DNA from: Sphingomonas arvum
GTDB taxonomy: Bacteria; Pseudomonadota; Alphaproteobacteria; Sphingomonadales; Sphingomonadaceae
DNA length: 64,000 bases
Reading direction: 5' to 3'
NCBI RefSeq assembly: GCF_026013565.1
Contig: NZ_JAPDOB010000001.1
Location: 992,001-1,056,000 of the forward strand
Part shown: positions 7,393-64,000 of the stretch, piece by piece
Layout of the letters: every line of letters starts with the position of its first letter
How positions within the stretch are numbered: the first letter of the stretch is position 1
Position numbers and translations under genes: made by a program
Notes under the pieces: generated by a model
The model's input: the letters and a program-made list of their open reading frames with translations, nothing else
Told to the model about the DNA's origin: nothing
The model's database searches: none

Positions 7393-8307
7393 TTATTGAA
7401 CTCGAGTGACCTTCAGGCCGCGCTTTTCGAGCAGGTCGAGGACCGAGCCGGAACCGGCAAGGTGGCCGGCGCCGACCGCTACCATGACGGTCCCGGGCTG
7501 GGCCATGCGGCGCTCGATCCACCCGGCCCAGTTGCGGTTACGCTGGGTCAGCAGCGCGTCCTTGAGCGGCGGCGAGCTCGCCATCTCCTCGTTGAAGCTG
7601 CGCGCGATGGCGCCCACGTCCCCGCGCGACCAGCTGGCCAGCATGGCGTCGAACTGCTTGCGCGCACCGGCCGGGTCATCGAGCGCAGACAGCAGCAGGT
7701 CGCGCTGCGCTTGCTCGGGCAGGCGGTCGAAGAAGCCGAGCTGCTCGGCGTTGGTTTCCAGTTGTCCGATCGGCTTGCCGGAACCCTTGAAGCTGTTCCG
7801 CAGCGTGGTTTCCACACCCTCCTCACCTTCGAGGCCGAACGACTTGAATTGGGTGCCCAGCAGGGTCACGGCCGCGGCCCAAGTCTCCATCCGGTCGAAC
7901 ACGGCGGCGGGGTAGCCGGAGGTGCGGATCGCGGCGTCCAGCGCAGCGCGCTTCTCGGCGGGCACCCGGCTGGCGAGGGGGGGCAGGTTGGCGCCCAGAC
8001 CAAGCTGCGCCATCGCCTGCGCGAGCGGAGCGGGGTTCGCCGGATCGATGATGGTCTCCACCACTAGGCCGTTCGCCCGATTAACGGCGTCGTCGAACTT
8101 GGCGGTGCGCCACTGATATTGCTGGGGCAGCAGGTGAATGGTGCCGAACAGGTAAATGGTCGTGTCCTTGTCGGCCACCTGCCACAGGGCCGGGCGGGGC
8201 GCGGGGCCGGACGAAGCGGCGGTGGTCGCTGCCGAGCTGCACCCAGCGGCGGTGGTGGCGATGCCGAGCGCAACGGCGGCGCGGCGAAGGATATTGAGCA
8301 GACGCAT
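7393..8307 (-). CDS. TraB/GumN family lipoprotein (copy 2)
   Basis: 304 residues from the ATG at 8307. The N-terminus has a signal peptide ending TAAGCSS, a lipobox with Cys22 as acylation site, so it is probably a membrane-anchored periplasmic lipoprotein. Family blocks are [13 protein letters not shown] near residue 50 and [15 protein letters not shown] near the C-terminus. The open frame continues far upstream on this strand through the opposite-strand glyQ gene, but that extension has no coding signature. It is paralogous to the next gene downstream and divergent from glyQ, with 87 nt between starts. Confidence 0.87.
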
Positions 8308-8394
8308 GCATGTCTCCGTGGCCCGGGGGCTGTTAACGAAGCATGTAGGGGCGGCTTGGCAATCGGGGAAGCGGGTGCCAAAGCCCGCGCCGAT

Positions 8395-9258
8395 ATGAGC
8401 GCGCTGAGCTTCCAGGACCTGATCCTCACCTTGCACCGCTACTGGTCGGACCGCGGCTGCCTGATCCTGCAGCCGTACGACATGGAGATGGGGGCGGGGA
8501 CCTTCCATCCGGCCACCGTGCTGCGGGCGCTGGGGCCGGAGCCGTGGAAGGCGGCATTCGTGCAGCCGTGCCGGCGGCCGACGGACGGGCGCTATGGCGA
8601 CAACCCGAACAGACTGGGGCATTATTACCAGTATCAGGTGATCCTGAAGCCGAGCCCGGCCGACCTCCAGCAATTGTACCTCGACAGCCTTCAGGCGATC
8701 GGGGTGGACCTGCTCAAGCACGACATCCGCTTCGTCGAAGACGATTGGGAAAGCCCGACGCTGGGTGCCTGGGGCCTCGGCTGGGAAGTGTGGTGCGACG
8801 GGATGGAGGTGACCCAGTTCACCTACTTCCAGCAGGTCGGCGGGTTCGACTGCCTGCCGGTTGCGGGCGAGCTGACCTACGGGCTGGAGCGGCTGGCCAT
8901 GTACATCCAGGGCGTCGACAACGTGTACGACCTCCGGTTCAACGATGCGGGCGTCAGCTATGGCGACGTATTCCTGGAGAACGAGCGGCAGATGAGCCGC
9001 TGGAACTTCGAAGTGGCGAACACGGACGCACTGTTCGACGCCTTTCGCAAGGCCGCCGCGGAGTGCGAGAACTGCTTGGCGAACGGGCTGGCGATCCCGG
9101 CCTATGAGCAGGCGATCAAGGCGAGCCACATCTTCAATACGCTGCAAGCGCGCGGGGTGATCTCGGTGGCGGAGCGGCAGGCCTATATCGGGCGGGTGCG
9201 CGACCTGGCCAAGGGCGCGTGCGCCAAATGGCTGGAGTGCCGGGAGGTGGCAGCATGA
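8395..9258 (+). CDS. glyQ: Glycine--tRNA ligase alpha subunit
   Basis: 287 residues, the normal length. It begins [13 protein letters not shown] and contains [24 protein letters not shown] split across residues 15-40, plus [22 protein letters not shown], a class II synthetase motif 2 region. With the beta subunit it forms the bacterial alpha2beta2 glycyl-tRNA synthetase that charges tRNA-Gly with glycine and ATP. Its stop overlaps the start of glyS (ATGA, 9255-9258), implying translational coupling. An open extension upstream to 8119 is rejected because homology begins exactly at this ATG. Confidence 0.97.
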
Positions 9259-49386: not shown

Positions 49387-49845
49387 TCAGCTGAGCCAGC
49401 GCTCGTTCTCATCCGGTACCAATTCCGGGCCGTGAGCCTCCTGCGTGTAGAACCGCAGTCGTAGTTCGTCGGGATCTTCGACAATGAGCAGCCAGCCAAG
49501 CAGGCCCGTAAGGATCGGTGAGCAGGCAAGATCGAGCGACGAAAAGCGCCCAGCAAGGAGGATCAGCGCCTTGCGATCAGCCACTGCGAGCGTGAGCGGA
49601 TCAAATCCGCGATGCTGAACTGCTTGGCGCTCGTTGAGGCGAAGTTCGAGTAGGCACCGGAGACCGGGCACGCTCAAGATGTACGCGTAGGGTGTACCAT
49701 CTTCGAGCAAGTGGTCGTACTTCGGAATCCGCTCAGCACCCAGCACGGCCTCGTAGAAGGCGAGTGAACGATCGAGATCGCTGACGGCAACCTTGAGATG
49801 ATGGATGCCGAGTATGAGCCGAGGGCTCTCGAGCCCCTGCGTCAC
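49387..49845 (-). CDS. VOC (glyoxalase/extradiol dioxygenase-fold) family protein
   Basis: 152 residues covering one vicinal-oxygen-chelate unit: IHHLKVAVSDLDRSLAFYEA, VLGAERIPKYDH and LRCLLELRLNERQ. The C-terminal strand is DPDELRLRFYTQE, where the last metal ligand, normally Glu in x-E-F/Y, appears to be Arg. Metal catalysis is therefore uncertain and a binding role is possible. It overlaps the FAH-family gene by 4 nt and is the penultimate or last gene of the divergent catabolic operon. Confidence 0.85.
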   Translation of the reverse strand: MTQGLESPRLILGIHHLKVAVSDLDRSLAFYEAVLGAERIPKYDHLLEDGTPYAYILSVPGLRCLLELRLNERQAVQHRGFDPLTLAVADRKALILLAGRFSSLDLACSPILTGLLGWLLIVEDPDELRLRFYTQEAHGPELVPDENERWLS

Positions 49846-50777
49846 GCTGCAGCCTGAACGGTTGCGGGTGCAAGCTGTTCAAGGCAAGTGACCTCAAAGG
49901 TGCCCAACGAACCGATCTCCGCTCGCATTCGGTCGCCCGGTTTCAACCAGGCATTACCGTGGACGCCGGCCGAACCAGGAGGCGAGCCCGTCATGATCAT
50001 GTCGCCCGGTTCGAGCGTGAGATATTGGCTGATGGTAGCGATCATCTCATCGACCTTGAAGAGCATCTGGCTGGTCGAGCCGTCCATCATCAAGGCATCG
50101 TTGACCCACAGCCTGATCGGCAGCGCATCCACATCGCCGGCATGAGGTGTCGGCACGAAGTAAGGGCCGCAAGGCGCCATTGTGTCCTGAGCTTTCCCGC
50201 GCAGGAGATCGATCTGCAGGTCGTTGTGCGCCGGGATTAGGTCGCGGCAGGACAGGTCAAGGCCAATCGTGTAGCCAGCTACCGACCTCGCTGCCTCGTG
50301 CCGATCAACCTTGGTGAGCCGTCGCCCGATGACGATGGTCAGCTCGCACTCCCAATCGAACTGCTTTGTAGAGGGCGGGATCACGACAGTGACTCCGGGT
50401 CCGACCATCGTGGTGGTCGGCGGCCGAATGAAGAAGGGCATGGAAGCCCATTTCTGAGCTTCGAGCCCCATCTCGGCGAGGTGGCCGGGATAATTCGCCC
50501 CGACAGCGATGAGCTTATTCGGATAGCGGACCGGGGTAAGCAGCTCGATGCCGTTCCGAGGCAACGGCGCCAATCCCGTCAAGCCGCGTTCGCCGATGTC
50601 GTCAGCGATGCTTTGCAGGAGAACCGCCGAGCGCTCCCAGGACGAGAGGATATCCATGACCGTAATACCGGGATCGAAGGGGAAAACCTCGCTGAGTGCA
50701 AAGTGGTCCTCGCCAATCACCATGGCGGCGAGTTCCCGTTCATCGTGCTTGAGTGTCGCAAGGCGGTAGGGAGTCAT
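49842..50777 (-). CDS. Fumarylacetoacetase-family hydrolase
   Basis: 311 residues. The metal triad of the family is visible as E143 and E145 in FDWECELTIVIGRR and D174 in TIGLDLSCRDL. The C-terminus has GDMIMTGSPPGSAG and LKPGDRMRAEIGSLGTFEV, the signature closing the active site. Members hydrolyse, decarboxylate or hydrate 2-oxo/acylpyruvate-type acids (for example 2-keto-4-pentenoate hydratase, oxaloacetate decarboxylase). The exact substrate is unknown. It is 3 nt downstream of the ThDP enzyme gene, so a 2-oxo acid intermediate may pass between them. Confidence 0.9.
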   Translation of the reverse strand: MTPYRLATLKHDERELAAMVIGEDHFALSEVFPFDPGITVMDILSSWERSAVLLQSIADDIGERGLTGLAPLPRNGIELLTPVRYPNKLIAVGANYPGHLAEMGLEAQKWASMPFFIRPPTTTMVGPGVTVVIPPSTKQFDWECELTIVIGRRLTKVDRHEAARSVAGYTIGLDLSCRDLIPAHNDLQIDLLRGKAQDTMAPCGPYFVPTPHAGDVDALPIRLWVNDALMMDGSTSQMLFKVDEMIATISQYLTLEPGDMIMTGSPPGSAGVHGNAWLKPGDRMRAEIGSLGTFEVTCLEQLAPATVQAAA

Positions 50778-50780
50778 GGG

Positions 50781-52529
50781 TTAGCTCTCCTGCTTGATCT
50801 GAGTCCGGGGGGCAGGCCGCGCCACGGGTAGGTTGTGAGTGATCAGCCGTGCCGCTTCACGCCCTTCGCCGGCGAGAAGAGCTTTGGCAGCGTAGAGTGC
50901 GGTCCCGCCGACATTGCCTGCGCTGACATGTGGCGGGACGACCAATTCGTAGCCATCGACAACGACATCGAGGAGCGCGGGGCCGTCCTGCTCGAGCAGG
51001 CGGGTGATCGCGCCGGGCAAATCCGCGGCCTCCTCAACCCTTTCGCCCCATAGGCCCATCGCGCGCGCCAGTGCGCCAAAGTCTGGGTTGCGAAGATCGG
51101 TGTAGGTATTGAGCAGGCCCTCGACCTTCTGCTCCAGATCGACAAAGGCCAGCGAGCCGTTGTTGAAGACCACCACCTTGATGTTGAGCTCCTCCTGCAC
51201 GGCAGTCAGGAGGTCTCCAAGGAGCATGGTCAGACCGCCATCTCCCGAAAGGCAGATCACCTGGCAGTCTGGCCTCGCAGCTGCCGCCCCAAGAGCGTAG
51301 GGCAGGGCATTCGCCATCGAGCCATGCGTGAGGCTGAGGAGCGTGCGGTTGCGGCCTGTCGCTGACACATGGCGCAGCAGCCAGACCATCGGTGTACCGC
51401 CATCTGCAGTCCAGATTGCATCTTCGTTGGCGGCTTCAGCGAGGCACGTCGTGACATATTGCGGGTGGATGGCCTCGGTGCTCGCCACAGCCCGCTTCTC
51501 GAGCTGATGGTAGGTCTCGAAGCGCTGCTTGCCAGCCTTCTCGAGAAAGCCGGTGTCCGCGCGTTCTACGAGGCCTGGCAGCAGCAGTTGGAGCGTGGGC
51601 CCAACATCGCCAGCCAGGCCGAGGTCGATCGGGTGACGCCGTCCAAGATGCGTCGGCTCAGTATCGATTTGGATGATTGTCGCCTTGCCCGGGTAGAACT
51701 GACGCCAGGCAAAGTCGCATCCGAGCAGGATGAGAGTGTCGCACTCCATCAGCGCATCGAAGCCGCTCTTGACCCCGAAGATGCCGGTCATTCCCACTGC
51801 GAAGGGATTGTTGGGCTCAAGGAAGTCCTTGGCTCGCGAGGTGTAGGCTACAGGCGCTTTGAGCTTTGCCGCGAGCGCGATCACTTCCTCATGCGCGTGC
51901 TGACAACCTGAACCACCGTAGATGGCGATCTTCCGGCCGCGGGAGATGATCTCGACGGCTTTGGCGATCTCATCGAGGACAGGGGTCAGGACTGAGGTTG
52001 CACGGTGTATCTGGCGTGGAGCCTCGTCAGTGGAGAGACTGGCGACATCAGCTGGGAGGATCACGACGGCGACGCCTCTCTTGTTGAGCGCCGCCTGCAC
52101 GGCCATGGCGATAATCCGGCCGGCCGCTTCTGCAGTCCTTACCTCCTGGCAGAAGACGCTTGCCTGCTGATACAATGGCTTGAAATCGACCTCCTGAGGG
52201 AAGTCGGTCCCGAGTTCATCACGCCCGAGCTGGCTGGCGATAAGGACGACGGGTGCGCGGTTCCGGTGCGCATCGAAAAGCCCATTGATGAAGTGCAGGC
52301 TGCCCGGGCCACACGAGCCAGCGCAGACGACTAGTTCGTCGCTAACAAGTGCGTCAGCGCCAGCAGCGAAGCCACCAGCCTCTTCGTGACGCACGTGGAT
52401 GAAGCGGATCGTGCTGCGACGGATGGCGTCCGTCACAAGGTTCAAGGTGTCGCCAGGCAAGCCGTAACAACGCTTGGCGCCGGCATGCTCAAGCGTCGCG
52501 ATGATGAGTTCGGCGACATTCCTGGACAC
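50781..52529 (-). CDS. Thiamine-diphosphate enzyme, pyruvate oxidase/acetolactate synthase family (PoxB-like)
   Basis: 582 residues, full length for the family. E49/E50 in HVRHEEAGGFAAGADAL supplies the cofactor-activating Glu. The central domain (residues 185-320) includes GGSGCQHAHEEVIALA, and the ThDP-Mg motif runs from GDG (429-431) to NN (456-457). Such enzymes decarboxylate 2-oxo acids and transfer or oxidise the resulting aldehyde. The C-terminus lacks the amphipathic membrane helix known for E. coli PoxB, though the last 20 residues are basic. It is separated by 117 nt from the SDR gene, with a dyad symmetry in that gap. Confidence 0.9.
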   Translation of the reverse strand: MSRNVAELIIATLEHAGAKRCYGLPGDTLNLVTDAIRRSTIRFIHVRHEEAGGFAAGADALVSDELVVCAGSCGPGSLHFINGLFDAHRNRAPVVLIASQLGRDELGTDFPQEVDFKPLYQQASVFCQEVRTAEAAGRIIAMAVQAALNKRGVAVVILPADVASLSTDEAPRQIHRATSVLTPVLDEIAKAVEIISRGRKIAIYGGSGCQHAHEEVIALAAKLKAPVAYTSRAKDFLEPNNPFAVGMTGIFGVKSGFDALMECDTLILLGCDFAWRQFYPGKATIIQIDTEPTHLGRRHPIDLGLAGDVGPTLQLLLPGLVERADTGFLEKAGKQRFETYHQLEKRAVASTEAIHPQYVTTCLAEAANEDAIWTADGGTPMVWLLRHVSATGRNRTLLSLTHGSMANALPYALGAAAARPDCQVICLSGDGGLTMLLGDLLTAVQEELNIKVVVFNNGSLAFVDLEQKVEGLLNTYTDLRNPDFGALARAMGLWGERVEEAADLPGAITRLLEQDGPALLDVVVDGYELVVPPHVSAGNVGGTALYAAKALLAGEGREAARLITHNLPVARPAPRTQIKQES

Positions 52530-53362: not shown

Positions 53363-54361
53363 TTATCGCCCCTGAGCCTTTGCGAGAGCAGAGCCGGTCG
53401 GAGAAGCCGATGCAGCGGCCGGGGGTGCCTGGAAGCCGAACGTAGCTAGGAGGCTGGAAGCCTTGGGTGACATGATGAACTTCAGCCAAGCCCGAGCTGC
53501 GTCGGGGTGACGTGCCGACTTGACCATCGCTCCGGCGTAGGTGCCGCTTACGTTTTGGTCGGGAGGGATAGCGACCTGCTCGATCGAATTTCCGACTTGC
53601 TGCTGAAAGCGAGCTTCCGACTGCCAAGTGACCCCAGCATCGACCTTGCCTTGCATAAGGAACAGCGGGGTTTGCCGATGATGAATTTGGGTGAGGATGG
53701 TGCTGCCCTGCTGGACCTTGGTCGCGTAGATCGCGGTCTCCAGCGCCTTGCCACCGGCTTTTGTAAGCGCCTGCTGGATCTGCTTGGCTACACCTTCGAA
53801 CTGCGGGTTCGGCATTGCGAGGCGAACCTCGGGCCGGGCGAGATCGGTAAGACCGCGAATGCCAGCAGGGTTCCCTTTGGGCACCATGATCGTGAGATCA
53901 TTGACGGCGAAGATGGAGGGCGGACCTGCCAGATGATCCGAGGCGATCAGCGAGTTCACGTCGCCAAGTCCGGCAAGGTATACGTCCGGCTTGATGGTCC
54001 AGGTCATATTGCCGACCGTGATCGTCCCCCCGGCCTTGATCTGTTCCGCCAGGATGCCCGGTGGCAATGTTTCCCAGAAGAGCTTGCCCTTATATTCCGG
54101 ATGCATCTGCTCGAACGCGTCGACCAGCGGTGCCATGGCGAAGAAGTAATTGCCTCCGACGTACAGCACGAGCCGAGCGCCTTCGGGGTCGCCGTGGAAA
54201 TCCGGAAGGTTGTCGATCTCGGGCACTGTGAATTCTACCCCGCGTTGGCGGACATCGTTGTTCCGCCCCTCCTGCCAGGGAGGGTAGATAGACGGAGGGG
54301 CAGCAGCGGCAGTGGCGGTCATCACCAGCACTCCCAGGCCTAGCGCCAAGCGTTCAAACAT
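53363..54361 (-). CDS. Periplasmic substrate-binding protein (type 2 fold), orphan 2
   Basis: 332 residues from ATG 54361, with a signal peptide ending TAAAAPPSIYP. ARLVLYVGGNYFFAMAPLVD begins the first lobe, KPDVYLAGLGDVNSLIASDH reports ligand-pocket residues, and PDAARAWLKFIMSPKASSLL is the typical final helix of ModA/SBP_bac_11-like proteins. No permease or ATPase gene is nearby. It follows the DsrE-like gene by 7 nt. The ligand is unknown; oxyanions such as molybdate or sulfate, or other small acids, are common for this fold. Confidence 0.82.
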   Translation of the reverse strand: MFERLALGLGVLVMTATAAAAPPSIYPPWQEGRNNDVRQRGVEFTVPEIDNLPDFHGDPEGARLVLYVGGNYFFAMAPLVDAFEQMHPEYKGKLFWETLPPGILAEQIKAGGTITVGNMTWTIKPDVYLAGLGDVNSLIASDHLAGPPSIFAVNDLTIMVPKGNPAGIRGLTDLARPEVRLAMPNPQFEGVAKQIQQALTKAGGKALETAIYATKVQQGSTILTQIHHRQTPLFLMQGKVDAGVTWQSEARFQQQVGNSIEQVAIPPDQNVSGTYAGAMVKSARHPDAARAWLKFIMSPKASSLLATFGFQAPPAAASASPTGSALAKAQGR

Positions 54362-54368
54362 GGTGACC

Positions 54369-55163
54369 TCACGTTGCGTAGTGGAAGCCGGCGGCTTGCA
54401 GGACCGGGAGGGTTCCAACGGCGCCGGGGGTCAGGATGACGCCGGGCGCGAGCCGATTGGTAAGGTCGGCGGCAAGCGCCTCGACGCTCAGCTTGTCGGG
54501 ATTCACACCATCCTTGATCAGTGCGACGGCGGTCTCCCAGATGGCATTGTGACATGAGCCAAACACCACGCCTCGTCGCATGAGGGCTGGGATGCTGTTG
54601 TTCTCGAGCGAGAATACGCCTTGGGGGTTCTGGAAGTCGGAAGGATCAGCAGCGGCCGCCGGCGTGTCCAGGATCAGCTTGTTGGAACTGAAGGCTCCAC
54701 CGGTTCGGCTCGCCAGCTGATATTTATCCCATGCGCTCTGGTCGAAGAGGGCAAGTTGCGCGGTACCGTGGGTCATCGACGCAGCAAGGAAGTCGGGCTG
54801 CCTGAATGACCATATCTGGCAGTTCACCGCGTTGCGCATCAGGTTCAGCCATGGGCCACCGATGTCCTTGCTGTCCCACACCTGTTTGGCAGCGGGCCGG
54901 TAGGCGATGACCTCGGACAGCGCCTCGTGGTCCCAGAGCTCGGGATGATCGAGGATCATCGGCACTGTCTTGAAGTTGCGTCGGCGGGGTGCCTTGGCCA
55001 AGCGCTTGGCCAGCTCGCGCAGGCTCGCTGCACCACTTGGCAGTAGTTCCTGAGGGACGGCGGTGCCCTGTGCTGGTAACAGACCCATGGATGCAGCTCC
55101 GCTAAGGGCTAGGCTTCCGCCCAGCATTTTGAGGGCGGTTCGGCGGCCATGAAAGCCGATCAT
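54369..55163 (-). CDS. Tat-type exported protein with DsrE-like C-terminal region
   Basis: 264 residues from ATG 55163. The N-terminus GFHGRRTALKMLGGSLALSG has a twin-arginine followed by a hydrophobic stretch, typical of Tat signals. The middle part is unusual (PMILDHPELWDHEALSEVIA, FSSNKLILDTPAAAADPSDF). The end, FGSCHNAIWETAVALIKDGV ... GVILTPGAVGTLPVLQAAGFHYA, resembles DsrE/DsrF-fold sulfur-relay proteins in its Cys, P-G-A/G-V-G and Q-x-x-G-F/Y positions. The match is by eye and tentative. It is wedged between the two binding-protein genes, overlapping the first by 4 nt. Confidence 0.65.
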   Translation of the reverse strand: MIGFHGRRTALKMLGGSLALSGAASMGLLPAQGTAVPQELLPSGAASLRELAKRLAKAPRRRNFKTVPMILDHPELWDHEALSEVIAYRPAAKQVWDSKDIGGPWLNLMRNAVNCQIWSFRQPDFLAASMTHGTAQLALFDQSAWDKYQLASRTGGAFSSNKLILDTPAAAADPSDFQNPQGVFSLENNSIPALMRRGVVFGSCHNAIWETAVALIKDGVNPDKLSVEALAADLTNRLAPGVILTPGAVGTLPVLQAAGFHYAT

Positions 55164-55951
55164 TTTGCAGTTTCCTGCTTGCTGACCGGGAATTCGCGCG
55201 CCCAACCCCATTTCCGGAAGATCTGGTCGCCTGTCGGAGAGCTGAGGAATTTGACGAAGGCCACTGCTTCGGGCCGCTGCTTGCCGGTCGGGGTCAGCAC
55301 AACTCCGATATCTCGGTAGATCCGATACTCAGCCTCTAGTGGGACCTCGTCTGCTAATTGCGGGTTCGCAACCTGCCAGATGTTCCAGATCAGCCAGGCA
55401 TCGAGTGTCGGGTCTGCAGTCCAGGCCTGCTTGGCGACGGCGCTATTAGGCGCGAAGGTCTTCACGTTCGCGCGGAACGCCTTGACGGAACTGATACTGC
55501 CAAGCCGTCCGGCGACATCTTCCCAAAGGCCGTTTTGACCTGAGCCGGTCACGACCAGTATCTTGCGGCCCGCCGTCAAAAGGTCTCGGAAACCGCTAAT
55601 GCGATGAGGATTGCCGGGTCTGACCAGGATAGCAGCCGGACGGAGGTAGAGTGGGATGACGTCCTGCACCTGAAGCTCGCCGTCCATGCCGACCATGAAG
55701 CTGGTCATCATGTCTTCGGAGCCACTGTAGAGGAGGTCGGCATCGCCCTTGGCGGCGGCAATCCAGTTAGCCGTGGGACCGGCGACGACCTCAACCTTGA
55801 TGCCATGCTGTTCCTGGAAAGTCGCTGCAGCCTCCTGCATCGCGGGCAGGGGACCGCCTGGGCCGTAAACCTTAAGGGGCGGCTGAGCGGATGCCGGAGC
55901 CGAAGCGGCGATCGCAGCGGCCAGCAACAATGGAGTGAACATCACCTGCAT
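55160..55951 (-). CDS. Periplasmic substrate-binding protein (ModA-like), orphan 1
   Basis: 263 residues from ATG 55951 (ATG 55942 is an alternative). The signal peptide ends ASAQPPLKVYG. LPAMQEAAATFQEQHGIKVE and DADLLYSGSEDMMTSFMVGM form the first lobe, PLYLRPAAILVRPGNPHRIS the hinge, and AVAFVKFLSSPTGDQIFRKW the closing helix, as in ModA-type proteins. It is the first gene of the minus-strand catabolic operon, facing the nitrile-hydratase-like operon. No ABC permease or ATPase accompanies it. Confidence 0.85.
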   Translation of the reverse strand: MQVMFTPLLLAAAIAASAPASAQPPLKVYGPGGPLPAMQEAAATFQEQHGIKVEVVAGPTANWIAAAKGDADLLYSGSEDMMTSFMVGMDGELQVQDVIPLYLRPAAILVRPGNPHRISGFRDLLTAGRKILVVTGSGQNGLWEDVAGRLGSISSVKAFRANVKTFAPNSAVAKQAWTADPTLDAWLIWNIWQVANPQLADEVPLEAEYRIYRDIGVVLTPTGKQRPEAVAFVKFLSSPTGDQIFRKWGWAREFPVSKQETAK

Positions 55952-56138
55952 CTCCCGTCTCGTAATTAGAGCAGGCCGTAACCCTAGGTGAGGGAGGGCG
56001 ACCGTGGCTTTCACCTTCGCATTGCGACCGGGGATTGCGCAGCATGGCCCGGCCGGCAGCGTGCGGATCGGCAAGCCGCGTTCACGCCCGTAAGAACGGC
56101 TGCTGCATCTCCGCTACGCCGATCCTCCTGGAGGATTC
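55952..56138. promoter_or_regulatory. Divergent control region between the two catabolic operons
   Basis: 187 bp separate the ModA-like start from the beta-C subunit start, so promoters for both operons must be here. The plus-strand ribosome-binding site CTGGAGG lies 6-12 nt before ATG 56139. No clear -35/-10 pair or strong operator palindrome was found by eye, and there is no regulator gene adjacent. Confidence 0.55.
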
Positions 56139-56468
56139 ATGCAGACCTTGAGTAAAGTGGTGCATGCTGACCGCGAGGACCCGGTCTTCGAACCGGGCGA
56201 CCGCGTGCAGATCGATGACCGGCAGCCGATCGGGCATTACCGGGTCCCCACTTACATGCGCGGCAAGCCCGCCACGGTTATCGCCGCAATACGACCGACC
56301 ATGGTCGACAACGAAGCTGAAAGCTTCGGCCGTAACGCGGGATCCCGGCGTCATTACTACCGTGTCTTCGTGCCCATGACGGAGCTTTGGAGCGACTATC
56401 GGGGCACCGACAACGACGGGCTCTACATCGAGATCTTCGAAACTTGGTTGAAGAGAGCAGAGCCGTGA
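56139..56468 (+). CDS. Nitrile hydratase/thiocyanate hydrolase-type beta C-terminal domain subunit
   Basis: 109 residues equal to only the SH3-like C-terminal half of a nitrile hydratase beta subunit. FEPGDRVQIDDRQPIGHYRV, then PTYMRGKPATVI, gives the conserved R35 and R41 of the GHxRxPxYxRG motif. Those arginines hydrogen-bond the modified cysteine claw in known enzymes. HYYRVFVPMTELW and YIEIFETWL complete the barrel. Thiocyanate hydrolase and toyocamycin nitrile hydratase have a comparable separate chain. The stop overlaps the alpha GTG by 4 nt. Confidence 0.88.
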   Translation: MQTLSKVVHADREDPVFEPGDRVQIDDRQPIGHYRVPTYMRGKPATVIAAIRPTMVDNEAESFGRNAGSRRHYYRVFVPMTELWSDYRGTDNDGLYIEIFETWLKRAEP

Positions 56469-57133
56469 CTGGAGAAACAACGACCCATGCCGACCATGAC
56501 CATGATCATGACCATTCTCATGCCGGCATGGCGCGCGATGCAGAGCGGGACGGCATTTTCGAGGTCATGGAGACTGCTGTCCGCGAGCTGCTCACGGATA
56601 AGGGCCTGATCGCGGCTACCGACATTCGCCGCCAGATCGAGGTTCTGGACTCGCGCTCCCCAGCTCTCGGCGCGGCGGTGGTGGCGAGGGCGTGGACAGA
56701 CCCAGCCTTCAAGCAACGTCTACTAGAAAACGGTAGGATGGCTTGCGAGGAGCTGGGGATCACCTTCTACGATGATACTCAGCTGATCGTTCTCGAGAAC
56801 ACCAACGAGGTCCATAACCTCGTCGTTTGCACTCTATGCTCCTGCTACCCGCGGCCGGTGCTCGGGCTTCCGCCCGACTGGTACAAGCTCAAGCCTTACC
56901 GGGCGCGCGCAGTCTATGAACCGCGACAGCTGCTTGCAGAATTCGGCACCGTTATCCCTGATGATGTCGAGATCCGGGTGAGTGACTCAACGGCGATGGT
57001 GCGTTTTCTGATTCTTCCGCAGCGCCCGGCAGGCATAGATGATCTGACGACCGACCAGCTCGCCGCCCTTGTCACCCGCGATGCAATGATCGGGGTGGTG
57101 CGTGACCTGGTCCCATCGGGAGCAGTCATGTGA
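56465..57133 (+). CDS. Cobalt-type nitrile hydratase/thiocyanate hydrolase catalytic (alpha/gamma) subunit with His-Asp-rich N-terminus
   Basis: 222 residues from GTG 56465. The metal claw VCTLCSC is at 121-127 (C122, C125, C127); Thr in the third place marks the non-corrin cobalt type, whereas iron enzymes have Ser. YPRPVLGLPPDWYK and YRARAVYEPRQLL follow as in the family. Residues 8-19 read HADHDHDHDHSH, six histidines alternating with aspartate, absent from ordinary alpha subunits and likely a metal-binding tail. It converts nitriles to amides or thiocyanate to carbonyl sulfide plus ammonia; which one cannot be told. It overlaps both neighbouring subunit genes by 4 nt. Confidence 0.92.
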   Translation: MTGETTTHADHDHDHDHSHAGMARDAERDGIFEVMETAVRELLTDKGLIAATDIRRQIEVLDSRSPALGAAVVARAWTDPAFKQRLLENGRMACEELGITFYDDTQLIVLENTNEVHNLVVCTLCSCYPRPVLGLPPDWYKLKPYRARAVYEPRQLLAEFGTVIPDDVEIRVSDSTAMVRFLILPQRPAGIDDLTTDQLAALVTRDAMIGVVRDLVPSGAVM

Positions 57134-57462
57134 ACGACCTTTCGACCCTCATCACCCGCTTGCCCAACGACGTCGGCGGTCAACCTGCCGGTCCGCTGGA
57201 CCGCAGCGAACATGAGCTGCTTCCGTGGGAAAAGAGATGTCACGCGCTCGCCGACGTGCTCGACTTCCGCAAGATCATCAACACGGAGGAGAAGCGGCGC
57301 GGGGTCGAGGCTCTTGGCTCCGAGCAGATTGGCAAGCTCGGTTACTACGAGCGTTGGATAGTCGCGTTTGCCAATATCCTCTTTCAGAAGGGCCTGCTTA
57401 CCCCGGCGGAGCTTGCAGTACGGATGCAGGCCGTTGAGGAGCGGCAGCGCTCGTCCGAATGA
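57130..57462 (+). CDS. Nitrile hydratase/thiocyanate hydrolase-type beta N-terminal domain subunit
   Basis: 110 residues matching the helical N-terminal half of a nitrile hydratase beta chain. NDVGGQPAGPLDRSEHELLP, WEKRCHALADVL and YYERWIVAFANILFQKGLLT (72-91) align in order, with DVGG at 14-17. The activator proteins (P14K/P15K) that insert cobalt are relatives of this domain, so an activator role is the main alternative. The DVGG...GPL opening favours a structural subunit. It overlaps the alpha stop and the transporter start by 4 nt each. Confidence 0.85.
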   Translation: MNDLSTLITRLPNDVGGQPAGPLDRSEHELLPWEKRCHALADVLDFRKIINTEEKRRGVEALGSEQIGKLGYYERWIVAFANILFQKGLLTPAELAVRMQAVEERQRSSE

Positions 57463-58541
57463 TGAGGGCGGCGAGCTTCCAAAGCCGCCTCTTCTTGGTT
57501 GTAAGCGCAGTACTGCTCCTGAACGCAGGATCATGGGTGGCTGCATTCATTGCGTTCTCGGGCAGCCCGGTGCTGCTAGGCATAGCCCTGCTCATCTACG
57601 GGCTCGGCATGCGACATGGCTTCGATGCCGATCACATCGCTGCGATCGATAACGTCACTCGAAAACTGATGAGCGACGGCCAGCAACCGGTCGCGATTGG
57701 CTTCTTCTTCGCCGTTGGTCACTCGGGCTTGGTCATCGTGGTGACGCTGGCCATCGCTCATGCGGCAAGTTCCGCAGCGTGGTTCGAGCACTACAGGGCC
57801 GCTGGAGCAGCGATCAGCCAGGCAATCTCCGGCACGTTCCTCATCGCGGTCGCTATCGCAAACATCTTCGCTTTGCGAACGGCGATGCAAAAGAGCCTGT
57901 CGCCGTCGGCTGCCATCCCGTCCTTTGCTGCTCGCTTGGTGCGCGCCATGCGCTCGAGTTGGCACATGCTGGTGCTTGGCGTCCTCTTCGGACTGAGCTT
58001 CGATACGGCGAGTGAAATAGCCATGTTCAGCCTCTCGGCGGGGCAGGCCTCGAATGGCATGCCGCTCCACGAGATCGCGATCTTGCCGCTGCTATTCACT
58101 GCAGGCATGACGCTGGTCGATACTATCGACGGTCTCCTGGTGGTCGGCGCATATCGATTGGCGGTCGAGCAGCCAGAACGACGCCGCACCTACAATCTGG
58201 TGGTCACGTCCCTTTCGATCGCGCTGGCTCTCTCGACCGGGATGCTTCAGTTGCTTCCGACTGTCGACCCGCGCTTTATGTCGAGACCCGATGCCCTGGC
58301 CCTGCTGGCCACCGTCTCTGAGCACTCCAGTCTGATTGGCGCCTCGGTGCTGGCCTTTATTCTCATCGCCTGGGCAGGAACCTTGGTCTTGGCGCGGCGA
58401 CGTCAAACGAGTGACGAGGCGACGAAAGCGGCCACGGCCGCAACCACCAACAACCAGGCTACGCCTTTCAGCAAGGGTAGGGGAGTGCCCTTTCCACGCT
58501 CCAATCCGCTGATCCGCCGTTCACATGATACCGCCGCGTAG
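57459..58541 (+). CDS. NiCoT family nickel/cobalt transporter (HoxN/NixA-like)
   Basis: 360 residues with eight helices. All four family signatures are visible: RHGFDADHIAAID (H53, D56, H59), FFFAVGHSGLVIV, LGVLFGLSFDTASEIAM, and LFTAGMTLVDTIDGLL. It imports Ni2+ or Co2+ across the inner membrane. Placement after a cobalt-type hydratase implies Co2+ supply, as NhlF does in Rhodococcus. Its ATG overlaps the beta-N stop. The last 46 codons run antisense through the 3' end of the DUF202 gene, and the family fold ends before that, so the tail may be dispensable. Confidence 0.93.
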   Translation: MMRAASFQSRLFLVVSAVLLLNAGSWVAAFIAFSGSPVLLGIALLIYGLGMRHGFDADHIAAIDNVTRKLMSDGQQPVAIGFFFAVGHSGLVIVVTLAIAHAASSAAWFEHYRAAGAAISQAISGTFLIAVAIANIFALRTAMQKSLSPSAAIPSFAARLVRAMRSSWHMLVLGVLFGLSFDTASEIAMFSLSAGQASNGMPLHEIAILPLLFTAGMTLVDTIDGLLVVGAYRLAVEQPERRRTYNLVVTSLSIALALSTGMLQLLPTVDPRFMSRPDALALLATVSEHSSLIGASVLAFILIAWAGTLVLARRRQTSDEATKAATAATTNNQATPFSKGRGVPFPRSNPLIRRSHDTAA

Positions 58542-58747
58542 AAGCAGAAGGCGCCTACCAGCAGAAGGATTGTCGCCGCGGCGTGTAGGGCCCAACCCGG
58601 GACGTGATCCGCGAGCAGGGACCTGAAGCCTACCCCTGCGGCGAGTGCACCAAGGCCGGTCCGGACCCAGGAAGCATAGGTACGCTCGTAAGCTAGTCGG
58701 GTGCGGTCGGTGGCGAGCTCGTTCGTGGTCTCGGCTGGCTGCGTCAT
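58403..58747 (-). CDS. DUF202 (YidH-like) membrane protein
   Basis: 114 residues with three helices. NELATDRTRLAYERTYASWV followed by RTGLGALAAGVGF is the defining DUF202/YidH motif (x-L-A-x-x-R-T-x-L-A-x-E-R-T). The function is unknown. It is convergent with the NiCoT gene and overlaps its 3' end by 139 nt, an unusually long tail-to-tail overlap. The 232 nt on its right holds its promoter and that of the TonB receptor. Confidence 0.87.
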   Translation of the reverse strand: MTQPAETTNELATDRTRLAYERTYASWVRTGLGALAAGVGFRSLLADHVPGWALHAAATILLLVGAFCFYAAVSCERRISGLERGKGTPLPLLKGVAWLLVVAAVAAFVASSLV

Positions 58748-58979
58748 GTCGGCTCCGGGTTGTCAGCGATAATGTGCCGATCGCGACCGCTCTGGCCTAC
58801 CCAATTCGCACCCTCACTGACCCATTATCGTGCTTTCCCTTTCATCGCCGTGCGAAACGGCAAGAAGCCGAGCTTGCTTCCACTATCTTGTTCGAGCCCT
58901 AGGCTCATCGAGTTCAATCTAATCCCTCTTAACCCTGTTATGATCCCTCCGACTCCTTGGCGGAGGAAGGTTGGCGAGC

Positions 58980-61900
58980 ATGCAATTCTCAATAGTCACC
59001 ATGCTCCTGCCAGTATCTGCCCTTTTGCCGTCTGCGACGCATGCGGGGCCGAGCGATGTAGTAAATGTGGATGTCCGCGCCGGGCCACTGTCTGGAGCCT
59101 TGGGTGAATTCGCTCGGGAGACCGGGACTGGGCTCTTGTTCGACAAAACCATAACCGACCATCTGTCGGCGCCAGCCGTGCGTGGCACCTTCACGAGGGG
59201 AACTGCGCTGAGCCTGCTGCTCCGCGGCACGGACGTCAGCTATCGCGTTGTTGCCGGCAGCTTCGCCCTCTATCGCCTGCCTAAATCTGAGAACGCCGAT
59301 TTCCGTGACACGGCCAGGGACTTGCCCATCCCCGAGATCCTGGTGATGGGACGGCGCAGTCAGAACGTGGATATCCGTCGCTCGACCAACGATATCCGGC
59401 CCTACAAAGTTCTGGAGCGCTCCAAGTTTGCCGAGGCGACCCGCGATGATCTCAACGAAATCCTCCGGACCGAGCTTACCGCCAACGCAGCCTCTGCCGC
59501 ACCGGCGCAGATTCTTAGGAACGCTGGGGATTCCCGCTCTTCGATCGATCTTCGCGGCTTAGGTCCCGATCGAACACTGGTGCTGGTGGACGGTCGGCGT
59601 TTCCCAACGATTCCGACCTTCACCCTCGACAACCTGCAGCCCGACATCAACGCGATCCCGCTGATCGCGATCGAGCGCGTAGAGAGCATCACTTCCACCG
59701 CCGGGGGCACTTATGGCCCTGGTGCGCTTGGCGGGGCAGTGAATATCGTACTCCGCCAGAAGATGCGCGGAGTGGAAATGCGAGGCACGGCAGGGTTAAG
59801 CAGCCGCGGCGACGCCGGCACAACCTCTCTTGAGACTATGATCGGGCTGCGCAGTTCGGACGATCGCACCGGGATCATGCTGGTTGGCGGCCTACGCAAA
59901 GCGAACGGGCTGCTGCGGAAGAATCGCGACTATTCCGAAAGGCAACGCAAACTTCAGTTCAAGAACGATCCTGCCGGCTATTCTCCACTCCGCTATGCAG
60001 CGAATTCCGGAGGCTTCTATCGCTTCACCGACTCCGTGACTGTTTACAGCAGCTCAGGTGAGCCCCTCCGACTAAAGCCAGAGTATGGCGGTGCCAATCT
60101 CGGGTCGGCTTATTCCTATCTGCCAAGTTCGTTCTCAGGCTCACGAAACGAGGCCATCACGTTGCTGCAGGCCAACGCGGGCAAGCTGACATTCGACTCG
60201 GCGCCGGACCTTCGCGACGGCGAAGCGTCTCTGCTTCCGCGTGTCCAGTCGGAGGCCGCGCTGGTGAACCTGGACCATCGGTTCGGCGATGCTTTCGAGG
60301 TGTATGTCAGCGGAGCATGGTTGCAGAACAGGAGCCGGTACGACTTCGCTGATGGTGAGCAGACCGTGACTTACCCCTTTGCTCCCACTAACCCTTTTCA
60401 ACAATCCGTCGTTTTCACGCTTCCGCGTCCGGACCTCATCGGGCTCTACACGCAGAAGATCGTGACCACGCACATGACCACCGGCGTGACTGCCTCCTTG
60501 GGGGGGCACTGGCGCCTCAACATCGACGCGTCGCTTGGAAGAGTTCGGGTCAGTAATGCGAGCGTTAACAGCGTCGTCAGCTTTCCATTGCTCAATGCAC
60601 TGCTGACAGGAAAACCCGGTGGGCTCGACTTACCGGTCGTTGACCCGCTTGCGCCCGAAGCCGAGCGAAACGCAGCTTTACTGGCATACCGAGAGACTGG
60701 TCGGACCAGCCAGGTTCTGACCAATCACTTCTACGATGCTTCGCTGCGTCTCGCGGGACCTCTGGTGCACTTGCCGGGAGGGCCTTTGACGGCGACTGCA
60801 TCGGCTGAATGGCGACGCGAGACGGTTCCCGAAACGCAGCGCGTCAGTAACTTCCCAGCGAGCAAGCGCGTCCTCGACAACTCGCCGCGGCAAGTGCAAG
60901 TAGCTTCCGCTCTTCTGGAGCTTAGGGCGCCGATCACCGGGAGTGACCAAAGGCTCCCGTTTTTACGCAAGCTCGAAGTGCAACTGGCTCTTCGAGGTGA
61001 CAGTTCAAGAACGCTTTATCCGACAAGTTTTGGGTCCATTCTGCCGGGGCAGGAGCCGGAAACACGCTCGCACCGGCTCGCTCTCACTTACACTGCCGGC
61101 GTGCGCATACGTCCCCGGCACAACCTGCTGTTACGGCTCAGTTCTGCAACAGGTGAGCTTCCGCCCACGATCCGTAACCTTCAATCGACGTTCGGCTATT
61201 TCGTCAATTCCGACGCGCTGCTCGCAGACAGCAAGCGTGGAGGGCGGCCGGTCGGAAGTGAGCGCTCCTTCATCTTCCTTTACGGTGGTTCGCCGGACTC
61301 TCCTCCCGAACGAGCACGCGGCATCTCCGCTGGCTTGGTCCTAAACCCCGATCCGAGAAGATGGCCGCAGTTCTCGCTCGACTATTCACACATTCATCGG
61401 ACGCGTGAGCCCTACGTCCTCTCCTACATCTTCTTCGACGACGAGAATGCACTAGCGAGGGTTCCCGAAGTTCTGGCGCGCGAGGGAAGCGATCCTGGCA
61501 GGCTCAGGCGGCTGCCGCTGACCGACGCCGATGCGGCACTGGGCTTCACGGCTGGTATCGTTACTCACGTGGACGGCCGGGGCGTCAATGATGGCGAGAC
61601 CGTGTTGAAATCCCTAGATGCCGATCTGTCCTGGCAATTGCCCGCGACACGCTTTGGGATCTTCGACCTCAATGCTTCCGCGACCTGGACGAGCTCTTTG
61701 CGTCATAGGATATCCGGTACCAGGCTTTCGACGGAGCGGGCCGGCTATGCCGACGGCCCGGTGAAATGGCGCGGAGTGTTGTCTCTTGACTGGCATCTCG
61801 GCAGTAGTTCAGCAGGCTTACGAGCAAACTACACTGGCAGCTATCGACCGATCTATGGCAGCCCTGCCGACGCTCAATACAATCCGCAGATTCTGCGCTT

Positions 61901-62126
61901 TCAGGGCCGGCAGCGCATTCCTCAGCAAGTTACCTTCGACCTGCGTGTCGGGCAGACGTTGGCGGTTGGGGTAGGAGTTCTGAAGAGAGCTCAGGTCGAG
62001 CTGGTCATTGCCAACGTGTTCGATGCGTCCCCACCAATCACTGCTGACCCTCAGACTCTGGGTTATAGCACCTACGCCGACCCACGGCGGCGGCGTTTCT
62101 CGCTCGCGCTTGGCACGGCGTTTTGA
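58980..62126 (+). CDS. TonB-dependent receptor with N-terminal STN signalling domain
   Basis: 1048 residues from ATG 58980 (a TTG three codons earlier is possible). The signal peptide ends THAGPSD. The STN domain spans about 30-98 (VDVRAGPLSGALGEFARETG, RGTFTRGTALSLLL). A TonB box-like EILVMGRR is at 119-126. The plug (IDLRGLGPDRTLVLVDGRRF, GPGALGGAVNIVLRQK) and a long barrel end in the expected aromatic residue (ALGTAF). STN receptors both import a ligand and signal through FecR to a FecI sigma factor. The convergent FecR gene 0.9 kb downstream is the likely partner. The ligand is unknown. Confidence 0.93.
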   Translation: MQFSIVTMLLPVSALLPSATHAGPSDVVNVDVRAGPLSGALGEFARETGTGLLFDKTITDHLSAPAVRGTFTRGTALSLLLRGTDVSYRVVAGSFALYRLPKSENADFRDTARDLPIPEILVMGRRSQNVDIRRSTNDIRPYKVLERSKFAEATRDDLNEILRTELTANAASAAPAQILRNAGDSRSSIDLRGLGPDRTLVLVDGRRFPTIPTFTLDNLQPDINAIPLIAIERVESITSTAGGTYGPGALGGAVNIVLRQKMRGVEMRGTAGLSSRGDAGTTSLETMIGLRSSDDRTGIMLVGGLRKANGLLRKNRDYSERQRKLQFKNDPAGYSPLRYAANSGGFYRFTDSVTVYSSSGEPLRLKPEYGGANLGSAYSYLPSSFSGSRNEAITLLQANAGKLTFDSAPDLRDGEASLLPRVQSEAALVNLDHRFGDAFEVYVSGAWLQNRSRYDFADGEQTVTYPFAPTNPFQQSVVFTLPRPDLIGLYTQKIVTTHMTTGVTASLGGHWRLNIDASLGRVRVSNASVNSVVSFPLLNALLTGKPGGLDLPVVDPLAPEAERNAALLAYRETGRTSQVLTNHFYDASLRLAGPLVHLPGGPLTATASAEWRRETVPETQRVSNFPASKRVLDNSPRQVQVASALLELRAPITGSDQRLPFLRKLEVQLALRGDSSRTLYPTSFGSILPGQEPETRSHRLALTYTAGVRIRPRHNLLLRLSSATGELPPTIRNLQSTFGYFVNSDALLADSKRGGRPVGSERSFIFLYGGSPDSPPERARGISAGLVLNPDPRRWPQFSLDYSHIHRTREPYVLSYIFFDDENALARVPEVLAREGSDPGRLRRLPLTDADAALGFTAGIVTHVDGRGVNDGETVLKSLDADLSWQLPATRFGIFDLNASATWTSSLRHRISGTRLSTERAGYADGPVKWRGVLSLDWHLGSSSAGLRANYTGSYRPIYGSPADAQYNPQILRFQGRQRIPQQVTFDLRVGQTLAVGVGVLKRAQVELVIANVFDASPPITADPQTLGYSTYADPRRRRFSLALGTAF

Positions 62127-63019: not shown

Positions 63020-64000
63020 TCAGTTCAGACTCTTGAGCTCGATCACGTCCGGCCCCTGGCGATGAGCCCTAACGGGGTACACAACTCCCAGAGCTTCGGC
63101 AAAACCGTCGGGATCGCCGTTCCGGAACCTCCCTGTGATCCGCAGATCGCGTAAGCGCAGGTCAGCGATGATGAGCTTGCGATCCGAATAGCGGTTCAGC
63201 TCGGCGAGCGCTGACGACAATACTTCGTTGTCGAACGTCGTCATGCCCTGCTGCCAGTCCAGACTGGCGTGAGGAACAGGCGATATCGTCCGCTTCCCAT
63301 TCCCCCCATCCACCAGCCTTTGCCCGGGTTCAAGGATCTGAGCTAAACCAGCGGAGGTTTGGATGGCGACACGACCCTGAAACAGATCGATCCGTGCTTC
63401 TCCACTGCTGGCCTTCACGCTGAACCGCGTTCCAAGTGCCCGGATGGTGGTCGGGCCTGCCACCACGACAAAAGGTCGGGCAGGGTCATGTGCAACGTCA
63501 AAGAGCCCCTGGCCCTCAATCAATCGAAATTCCCGCTGATTTCGTCCTAGCCGCACATCGATCTTGGTCCTTGCATCAAGAACAAGCTCGCTGCCGTCGG
63601 AAAGACGTAAGGATCGTACCTGTCCGCCAGCTGATGCAAACCGAGCCCACTTCTGCTCGACTGCCGGTTGAGCAATCTGGGGGTGAGTTGTCCTCCCAGG
63701 ATCAAGGAGACCATAGAGCGCGGGTGCGGCGAAGAGCAAACAAATGGCAGCGGCTACAGCTGCGGCAAGCTGCAGGGAGCTGAAAAGGGGCCTGCGTTTC
63801 GCCTCTCGTGCCTGGCTTCGTAGTTCGGACAGAAGGTCGGTATCCTTACTCTCGTCCAGTACTGTCAGAACCCCGCACACGTGCTGCCAAGCCTCGCGGT
63901 GGCGATGATTGCCACGGAGCCACTCGTCCAAGAGCGCCCTCTCATGCACCGACAAGCCTTCGCTTTGGCGAGCGGCCCACATGGCAGCGGCGTGTTCCGG
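63020..64000 (-). CDS. FecR-family transmembrane anti-sigma/signal transducer, 5' end cut by window edge
   Basis: 327 codons are open to the window edge, so the true start is to the right. The N-terminal DUF4880-like part reads AAAMWAARQSEGLSVHERAL and LDEWLRGNHRHREAWQHV. A transmembrane helix (LQLAAAVAAAICLLFAAPAL) separates it from the FecR domain (VRSLRLSDGSELVLDARTKI, FDVAHDPARPFVVVAGPTTI) and a C-terminal DUF4974-like part (LSSALAELNRYSDRKLIIAD). FecR proteins relay ligand binding at an STN receptor to a FecI sigma factor, usually encoded just upstream, here outside the window. Confidence 0.92.
   Translation of the reverse strand, partial: PEHAAAMWAARQSEGLSVHERALLDEWLRGNHRHREAWQHVCGVLTVLDESKDTDLLSELRSQAREAKRRPLFSSLQLAAAVAAAICLLFAAPALYGLLDPGRTTHPQIAQPAVEQKWARFASAGGQVRSLRLSDGSELVLDARTKIDVRLGRNQREFRLIEGQGLFDVAHDPARPFVVVAGPTTIRALGTRFSVKASSGEARIDLFQGRVAIQTSAGLAQILEPGQRLVDGGNGKRTISPVPHASLDWQQGMTTFDNEVLSSALAELNRYSDRKLIIADLRLRDLRITGRFRNGDPDGFAEALGVVYPVRAHRQGPDVIELKSLN

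Follow-up and report, generated by a model that had tools for sequence, protein, structure and literature searches.

Positions 992,001 to 1,056,000 of contig NZ_JAPDOB010000001.1 of Sphingomonas arvum (64,000 nucleotides; this whole stretch is hereafter called the window) contain a four-gene operon for a cobalt-type hydratase of the nitrile hydratase (NHase) and thiocyanate hydrolase (SCNase) family, an assignment that is well supported and in which the beta chain is split in two. The gene order is beta-C (the C-terminal half of NHase beta, equivalent to SCNase alpha), alpha, beta-N (the N-terminal half, equivalent to SCNase beta) and a nickel/cobalt transporter, the last of which the initial annotation had left out. 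With a probability of roughly 0.55, which overlaps with the odds of a thiocyanate-hydrolysing enzyme discussed below, we interpret the product as an active cobalt enzyme that differs from SCNase and hydrates a small cyano compound of polar or anionic character.

The earlier description of a three-chain cobalt hydratase with the two beta halves on either side of alpha and 4-nt overlaps between the genes was correct in coordinates, sizes and overlaps, and Pfam agrees with it (Table 1). The beta-C/alpha and alpha/beta-N junctions are GTGA overlaps (56465-56468 and 57130-57133), and beta-N is joined to the transporter gene by a 4-nt ATGA overlap (57459-57462). Searches of the genome (2.75 Mb, 3 contigs) found a single alpha and a single beta-N match and no second copy of either. 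The expectation that the two small products fit the two halves of a beta chain is borne out by AlphaFold2 models of the single chains, which were built on alignments of 64 relatives for beta-N and 60 for beta-C and reached predicted local distance difference test scores of 84.0 and 85.8, respectively. Foldseek searches of the PDB returned only NHase or SCNase chains among the top 25 matches of beta-N, the best being SCNase chain 2dd4_H (probability 1.00), and all 29 matches of beta-C below 0.001 were NHase or SCNase chains, with NHase beta and SCNase chains at the top; by sequence, the best PDB match of beta-N is SCNase beta (1.4e-10). The outcome that would have spoken against the split-chain assignment, small chains that do not model onto the two beta halves, therefore did not arise. 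Compared with the features of two-chain NHases, the cobalt claw C-T-L-C-S-C is present and the single full-length beta chain is replaced by two genes.

The initial annotation knew of no described system with this gene order. Searches of the open literature aimed at three-chain enzymes and gene order, most subscription papers being outside our reach, likewise yielded none among the papers listed, and the six NHase organisations listed in the accessible part of PMC7193024 do not include beta-C/alpha/beta-N. On the other hand, the order is not a peculiarity of this genome. When the species-genome collection was scanned with a beta-N profile, 93 relatives emerged; 80 were kept, and a domain search gave their gene order. 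This is beta-C/alpha/beta-N in 76 and beta-N/beta-C/alpha in two (L114 and L118), and the last two are truncated at a contig end. These 80 loci were picked by similarity, so that 76/80 shows conservation of the order and not its frequency. Plasmid records of Rhizobium, Agrobacterium, Microvirga and Polymorphobacter show the same arrangement, in which the chains flanking NHase alpha carry no annotation beyond SH3-like protein, and it can be read in an unannotated Azospirillum plasmid record. The hosts belong to several phyla and include many bacteria that live in soil or in association with plants. Among 398 genomes drawn evenly from the phylum, gene order was checked for 30 of the 49 beta-N-type matches listed, and the window alone had beta-C/alpha/beta-N; of 58 further genomes sampled from the same family, none matched the beta-N profile at 1e-6, and the operon therefore looks acquired in this genome.

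The resulting collection of 84 loci of this order is comprised of the window, 5 plasmids, 76 genome loci and two edge loci, many of them shortened by contig ends. Residues were counted in 82 of these after removal of 31 duplicate loci, the edge loci (L043 and L105), where beta-C runs off the contig, being counted separately. For comparison, we used 52 two-chain NHase loci, 13 of which show alpha and beta-C alone by profile, so that beta-N residues could be read in 39, and seven SCNase references that came from 349 genomes of the order to which the Polynucleobacter genome belongs; the 398 genomes of the phylum held no SCNase reference above the cut-off. In the class of the Saccharopolyspora genome, 20 of 394 genomes had a beta-N match at 1e-12; in two of these the order is beta-N/beta-C/alpha, and in 18 beta is fused; no toyocamycin-type cluster that could serve as a control was identified in this draw.

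Phylogenetic analysis was based on a careful tree of 67 rows with beta-N, alpha and beta-C joined, 28 of them of beta-C/alpha/beta-N order. It omits 47 of the 114 rows of a quick joined tree, including the long branches L128, L129, L132 and L137; four rows without detectable beta-N were dropped from the quick joined tree, and the two-chain rows of an alpha tree were a random 28. The careful tree separates two-chain NHases and the alpha/beta-N/beta-C loci from everything else at 100/100, the other side holding the remaining split forms, the SCNases and actinobacterial SCNase-like enzymes with fused beta. SCNases, fused-beta relatives, actinobacterial beta-N/beta-C/alpha operons and all 28 rows of the window's order form one clade (100/99), in which the 28 rows are monophyletic (100/94) and the window lies outside the SCNases, their sister group. 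Nearest to the 28 rows is L114 of the Acidimicrobiia (98/88), and L037, L118 and L202 join them at 96/85; all four loci are beta-N/beta-C/alpha. The quick joined tree is concordant, and the quick alpha-only tree requires two order changes. The possibility that the alpha chain falls deep inside the ordinary two-chain NHases was not borne out, as it is placed outside those sampled in both the alpha and the joined trees. Since the clade is nested in lineages with the beta-N/beta-C/alpha order of SCNase loci, a single move of beta-N is the simplest reading; assuming a root on the two-chain NHases, the gene was probably relocated once from the first to the last place.

Splitting of the beta chain alone was rejected as a guide to placement, because five loci of alpha/beta-N/beta-C order (L005, L020, L023, L025 and L129) group with the two-chain NHases and retain a pocket tryptophan; beta was split separately in these loci. 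L025 was assigned to this order by hand because of a further beta-like open reading frame (ORF) upstream. As a separate observation, the 18 loci with fused beta-N and beta-C (L203-L220) are SCNase-like, retain both SCNase pocket arginines and sit amid split forms in the trees; the L203 alpha chain, the sole one tested, reaches 390 bits with the SCNase model, whose cut-off is 291.

The catalytic-type residues are intact. The claw VCTLCSC, pointed out in the initial annotation, is found at alpha residues 121-127. According to the accessible text of PMC7193024, the NHase arginines that form salt bridges with the oxidised cysteines are R52 and R157. By alignment, the cysteine-binding arginines of the window enzyme are R56 of beta-N and R35 of beta-C, one in each half, and in our own reading of the alignments beta-C R35 would be the counterpart of R157. 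R35 and R41 of beta-C had been named earlier as the beta arginines; both are conserved, but R41 is an additional conserved arginine and the partner of R35 is in beta-N. The claw cysteines, the residues of R56, Y72 and Y73 type in beta-N and those of H33, R35 and R41 type in beta-C are all kept in 82/82 loci.

The pocket distinguishes these enzymes from two-chain NHases at two positions. The first, Arg130 of the window alpha chain, occupies the place that we take to be Trp116 of NHase alpha and Arg136 of SCNase gamma. Arginine is found there in 82/82 loci of beta-C/alpha/beta-N order, both edge loci, 20/20 beta-N/beta-C/alpha loci and 7/7 SCNases, whereas tryptophan is present in 48 of the 52 two-chain loci (His in two, Phe in two) and in 5/5 alpha/beta-N/beta-C loci. 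The second corresponds to SCNase beta-Arg90 (numbered from the alignment) and is Lys55 in the window; lysine is kept in 82/82 loci and both edge loci, SCNases have arginine (7/7), and beta-N/beta-C/alpha loci have leucine or asparagine (17/20) or, in L037, L118 and L114, lysine. Of the two SCNase pocket arginines, the window enzyme thus has the first as Arg and the second as Lys. The gamma-136 and beta-90 arginines would govern the thiocyanate selectivity of SCNase; a statement to this effect was not found in the literature consulted. Two network residues follow NHases rather than SCNases: the Glu56-type glutamate is kept in 80/82 loci (Asn in 7/7 SCNases) and the His147-type histidine in 82/82 (Tyr in 6/7 SCNases). 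Arg130 and Lys55 seem to give the pocket a more polar and cationic character than in two-chain NHases, so that the substrate is probably a small cyano compound of polar or anionic nature and not a greasy nitrile. A His-rich alpha tail was also considered as a built-in cobalt loader and rejected as a specific feature, since two-chain NHases have tails of comparable His content (median 6 in the 79 of 82 loci measured, versus 5 in 34 of 52).

Analysis of neighbouring genes revealed recurrent transport functions. A cobalt-transporter-like gene (HoxN-, CbtA- or CbiM-like) is found anywhere in the locus in 49 of the 84 loci of beta-C/alpha/beta-N order; the transporter in the window scores 229.9 bits on the NCBI HoxN model, under its cut-off of 333.05. 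In 42/84 loci an aquaporin-like gene follows on the same strand, no more than 3 kb downstream, compared with 0/7 SCNase, 0/11 other beta-N/beta-C/alpha and 0/2 fused-beta loci. The actinobacterial beta-N/beta-C/alpha loci L037, L118 and L238 (an extension of L202) carry both aquaporin-like and HoxN-like genes, and L114 carries neither. The residue following the second NPA motif of these MIP channels is V, I or L in 30 of the 31 aligned, the usual arginine being present in L037 alone. In other aquaporins, loss of this arginine broadens selectivity. A DUF302 match occurs within 7.5 kb in 37/84 loci.

The initial annotation had noted that there is no amidase gene. This is correct for PF01425 in the window, but the genome encodes two PF01425 proteins elsewhere, one of which is possibly GatA. 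A motif scan of ORFs longer than 250 residues detected no amidase signature beside related loci, except for one unconvincing opposite-strand match in L114, and missed a truncated amidase at the edge of L038. Pfam was applied to 106 of 191 downstream neighbour ORFs (aquaporin, HoxN, DUF302, CbtA and some others excluded), covering the 25 commonest of 76 families; the motif scan is therefore the basis for the statement that no amidase lies beside these loci. Given the two amidase-family proteins in the genome and related loci that also have none beside them, the missing amidase is weak evidence. The L038 locus itself (Planktothrix agardhii plasmid, 7986-9239) combines a beta-N/beta-C/alpha set with neighbouring genes for asparagine synthase, NADAR, TauD-type and aminotransferase proteins; an amidase is annotated where the stretch ends, and the locus looks biosynthetic.

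From these comparisons we infer catalytic activity, assembly, cobalt loading and the character of the pocket as follows. The three chains would come together in the same way as those of SCNase, with cobalt(III) held by the claw cysteines of alpha and the oxidised cysteines bound by beta-N Arg56 and beta-C Arg35. The metal would activate the C-N triple bond for attack by water. Cobalt would be supplied by the NicO-type transporter of the operon, and beta-N may double as a cobalt chaperone by analogy with AnhD of the three-subunit NHase of Streptomyces canus, while the aquaporin-like channel present in half of the loci would suit a small neutral solute entering or leaving the cell. A broader version of this interpretation, which we put forward tentatively and with less confidence than the hydratase function itself, is that the beta-C/alpha/beta-N clade and its actinobacterial relatives constitute a third functional class of the NHase superfamily beside nitrile hydratase and thiocyanate hydrolase, acting on a small polar or anionic cyano compound, with thiocyanate, cyanide, cyanamide and a cyano-carboxylate as candidate substrates. 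In many hosts of that class, a dedicated MIP channel without the usual filter arginine might pass the substrate or product, so that no amidase would be needed.

Several observations weigh against a distinct hydratase of polar or anionic substrates. The window alpha chain reaches neither family-model cut-off: it misses TIGR01323 (NHase alpha) by 5 bits (244.8 versus 249.85) and also misses TIGR03887 (SCNase gamma; 214 versus 291.45). The best Foldseek E-value of beta-N is just 2.7e-3, with none below 0.001. At the beta-Arg90 place, two-chain NHases are mixed (Ser in 26/39) and have no single hydrophobic type, which makes Lys55 less telling there. HoxN-like genes also occur near 3/7 SCNase loci, hence cobalt import does not distinguish the beta-C/alpha/beta-N group. 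No aquaporin-like gene was seen in the window, or within the available stretch of half of the 84 loci. Finally, the S. canus NHase takes neutral nitriles, so that a cationic pocket, if present in that enzyme, is no proof of a polar substrate.

The first alternative is a functional thiocyanate hydrolase, encoded by rearranged genes and converting SCN- to COS and NH3, for which no amidase is needed. We consider this doubtful, and thiocyanate as the natural substrate, whatever the enzyme is called, only marginally less so. Thiocyanate is favoured by the pocket, where both SCNase positions are cationic, by the clade uniting SCNases with the window group, and by the upstream genes; the best PDB match of beta-N, by sequence as well as by fold, points in the same direction. 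It is disfavoured by the SCNase-gamma score, by the NHase-type Glu and His in place of the SCNase Asn and Tyr, by Lys instead of Arg at the second pocket position, and by the channel gene common here and unseen in SCNase loci. The initial suggestion of a thiocyanate hydrolase is thus not established: the model cut-off is missed, SCNases are only a sister clade, and the neighbours differ.

The upstream genes in question are two minus-strand solute-binding protein genes (Table 1), whose link to the hydratase is uncertain, and between them, on the same strand, a gene for a TetH-like thiosulfate dehydrogenase (NCBIfam NF052225; 377 bits, cut-off 300) with a twin-arginine-like start as judged by eye. 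Homologues of both binding proteins occur near the hydratase operon in L083 (Dyella; 51.5% identity for 55160..56074 and 63% for 53363..54418) and L102 (Rhodanobacter; 53% and 62%). No permease was seen among the genes examined at 53363-56074, and the TetH-like gene, another point against thiocyanate, has no homologue in any related locus. Together, these genes hint at anion or sulfur metabolism, in three loci only.

A second alternative, about as doubtful as a rearranged SCNase, is an ordinary hydratase of small or neonicotinoid-type nitriles, similar to the S. canus or toyocamycin enzymes and serving in detoxification or biosynthesis, with the gene order as a neutral rearrangement. According to the accessible text of PMC7329996, the activator-free S. 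canus enzyme AnhD/AnhE/AnhA accepts acetamiprid, thiacloprid and a third nitrile, abbreviated BN, as substrates. This three-subunit enzyme and the channel would both favour a small neutral cyano compound; in addition, the alpha chain of the related L037 passes the NHase-alpha cut-off (267.5 versus 249.85 bits). Arg130 and Lys55 are, however, unlike two-chain NHases, and no biosynthetic genes were recognised beside the window operon, so the earlier idea of a biosynthetic NHase finds no support in the neighbour genes identified.

It is improbable that the 110-residue protein is solely an activator chaperone of P14K/P15K type, with beta-C completing alpha and no third structural chain. Self-subunit-swapping NHase chaperones weakly resemble beta, as stated in the accessible text of PMC7329996, and no separate activator-like gene was detected in the 82 loci (four extra matches lay inside the alpha ORF) with a weak detector, which found one in 2/52 two-chain loci (about 1.5 kb of flank) and 6/7 SCNase loci. 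Against this role, Arg56, Tyr72 and Tyr73 of beta-N are kept in 82/82 loci, while the activator-like second beta-N copies of actinobacteria (12 of 18 loci) lack the YYxRW motif, and beta-N scores 16.7 on the accessory-protein model, which requires 46. An acquired cluster that has become inactive or is decaying, to which the lack of beta-N matches in the other same-family genomes and a G+C content of 0.608 in the operon versus 0.648 in the window might point, is very unlikely given the intact catalytic-type residues, the open and overlapping frames and the transporter gene in the operon.

Other parts of the window show additional features. A row of minus-strand genes at 49387-52529 encodes proteins with glyoxalase and fumarylacetoacetate-hydrolase folds and a pyruvate-oxidase-like thiamine diphosphate protein (G+C 0.616, compared with 0.648 for the window). 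Downstream of the operon, the ORFs at 58403-58747 (minus strand, short), 58971-62126 (1051 residues) and 63020-63982 (minus strand) have tblastn matches in Glacieibacterium L091, a locus that bears the same hydratase operon. Elsewhere, a Sinorhizobium mexicanum plasmid (L039, 7359-8291) encodes a 310-residue protein, a type 1 glutamine amidotransferase by annotation, that contains a beta-N-like domain; DUF302 comes next, and no alpha chain was found in the 16-kb stretch.

Table 1. Features of the hydratase operon and of neighbouring or related genes; coordinates refer to the window unless another locus is given
Feature	Coordinates	Strand	Details
Solute-binding protein, second (SBP_bac_11)	53363..54418	-	PF13531 2.3e-48
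Divergent extracellular solute-binding protein (SBP_bac_11)	55160..56074	-	PF13531 4.8e-40
Shine-Dalgarno-like GGAGGA just 5' of beta-C	56130..56135	+	read from sequence
Beta-C chain	56139..56468	+	109 residues, ATG start; PF02211 NHase_beta_C 1.1e-15
Beta-C R35 codon	56241-56243	+	
Alpha chain, cobalt-type claw	56465..57133	+	222 residues from GTG; PF02979 NHase_alpha 8.5e-78
Claw VCTLCSC	56825-56845	+	alpha residues 121-127
Alpha Arg130 codon	56852-56854	+	
Beta-N chain	57130..57462	+	110 residues from GTG; PF21006 NHase_beta_N 6.5e-16
Beta-N K55	57292-57294	+	
Beta-N R56	57295-57297	+	catalytic-type
NicO/HoxN-type nickel/cobalt transporter	57459..58541	+	gene 4 of operon; PF03824 5e-55
MIP channel, example	L042 9329-10096		V/I/L in place of the usual arginine

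NHases serve as industrial catalysts, and SCNase is commonly cited as the three-chain example of the family, to which this work adds a third arrangement of apparently single origin. Judging from the comparison, a divided beta with reshuffled genes can keep its catalytic-type residues, and beta splitting seems to be independent of substrate class, since beta is fused in some actinobacterial SCNase-like enzymes. The set of operons, many of them with a channel and a cobalt importer, should be useful for understanding nitrile versus thiocyanate specificity.

Among known systems, two-chain cobalt-type NHases share the fold, the claw and the conserved arginines and tyrosines with the window enzyme, and differ in the one-chain beta, in the pocket tryptophan and in forming a separate clade. 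SCNase resembles it in having three chains equivalent to beta-N, beta-C and alpha, the cobalt claw CTLCSC, the arginine at the Trp116 place and a cationic residue at the Arg90 place. In contrast, its genes are ordered beta-N, beta-C, gamma and lack the aquaporin-like neighbour of half of the window-type loci, whereas the window enzyme falls short of the SCNase cut-off, keeps the Glu56- and His147-type residues and has no activator-like gene in view. All seven SCNase loci studied here have beta-N (SCNase beta) before beta-C (SCNase alpha), followed by gamma, which differs from the order alpha, beta, gamma, activator given in the accessible part of PMC7193024. The thiocyanate enzyme of THI201 was set aside as a relative: the accessible text of PMC8061750 places it close to thiocyanate desulfurase, and that of PMC7193024 lists it as a solo-subunit NHase. 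Compared by description only, in the parts of PMC7329996 and PMC13243292 that were accessible, the cobalt NHase of S. canus likewise has beta as separate N- and C-terminal chains (AnhD and AnhE, with AnhA as alpha) and no reported activator, AnhD being described in PMC7329996 as its cobalt chaperone; it differs in that the AnhD gene lies upstream of those of AnhE and AnhA and in that its known substrates are neutral nitriles. The toyocamycin NHase ToyJKL, again compared by description, has three subunits as well (PMC12648386, in part). The actinobacterial loci L037, L118 and L238 are near relatives outside the clade, with the same Lys and Arg pocket residues as the window enzyme and with the beta-N gene in the first place instead of the last.

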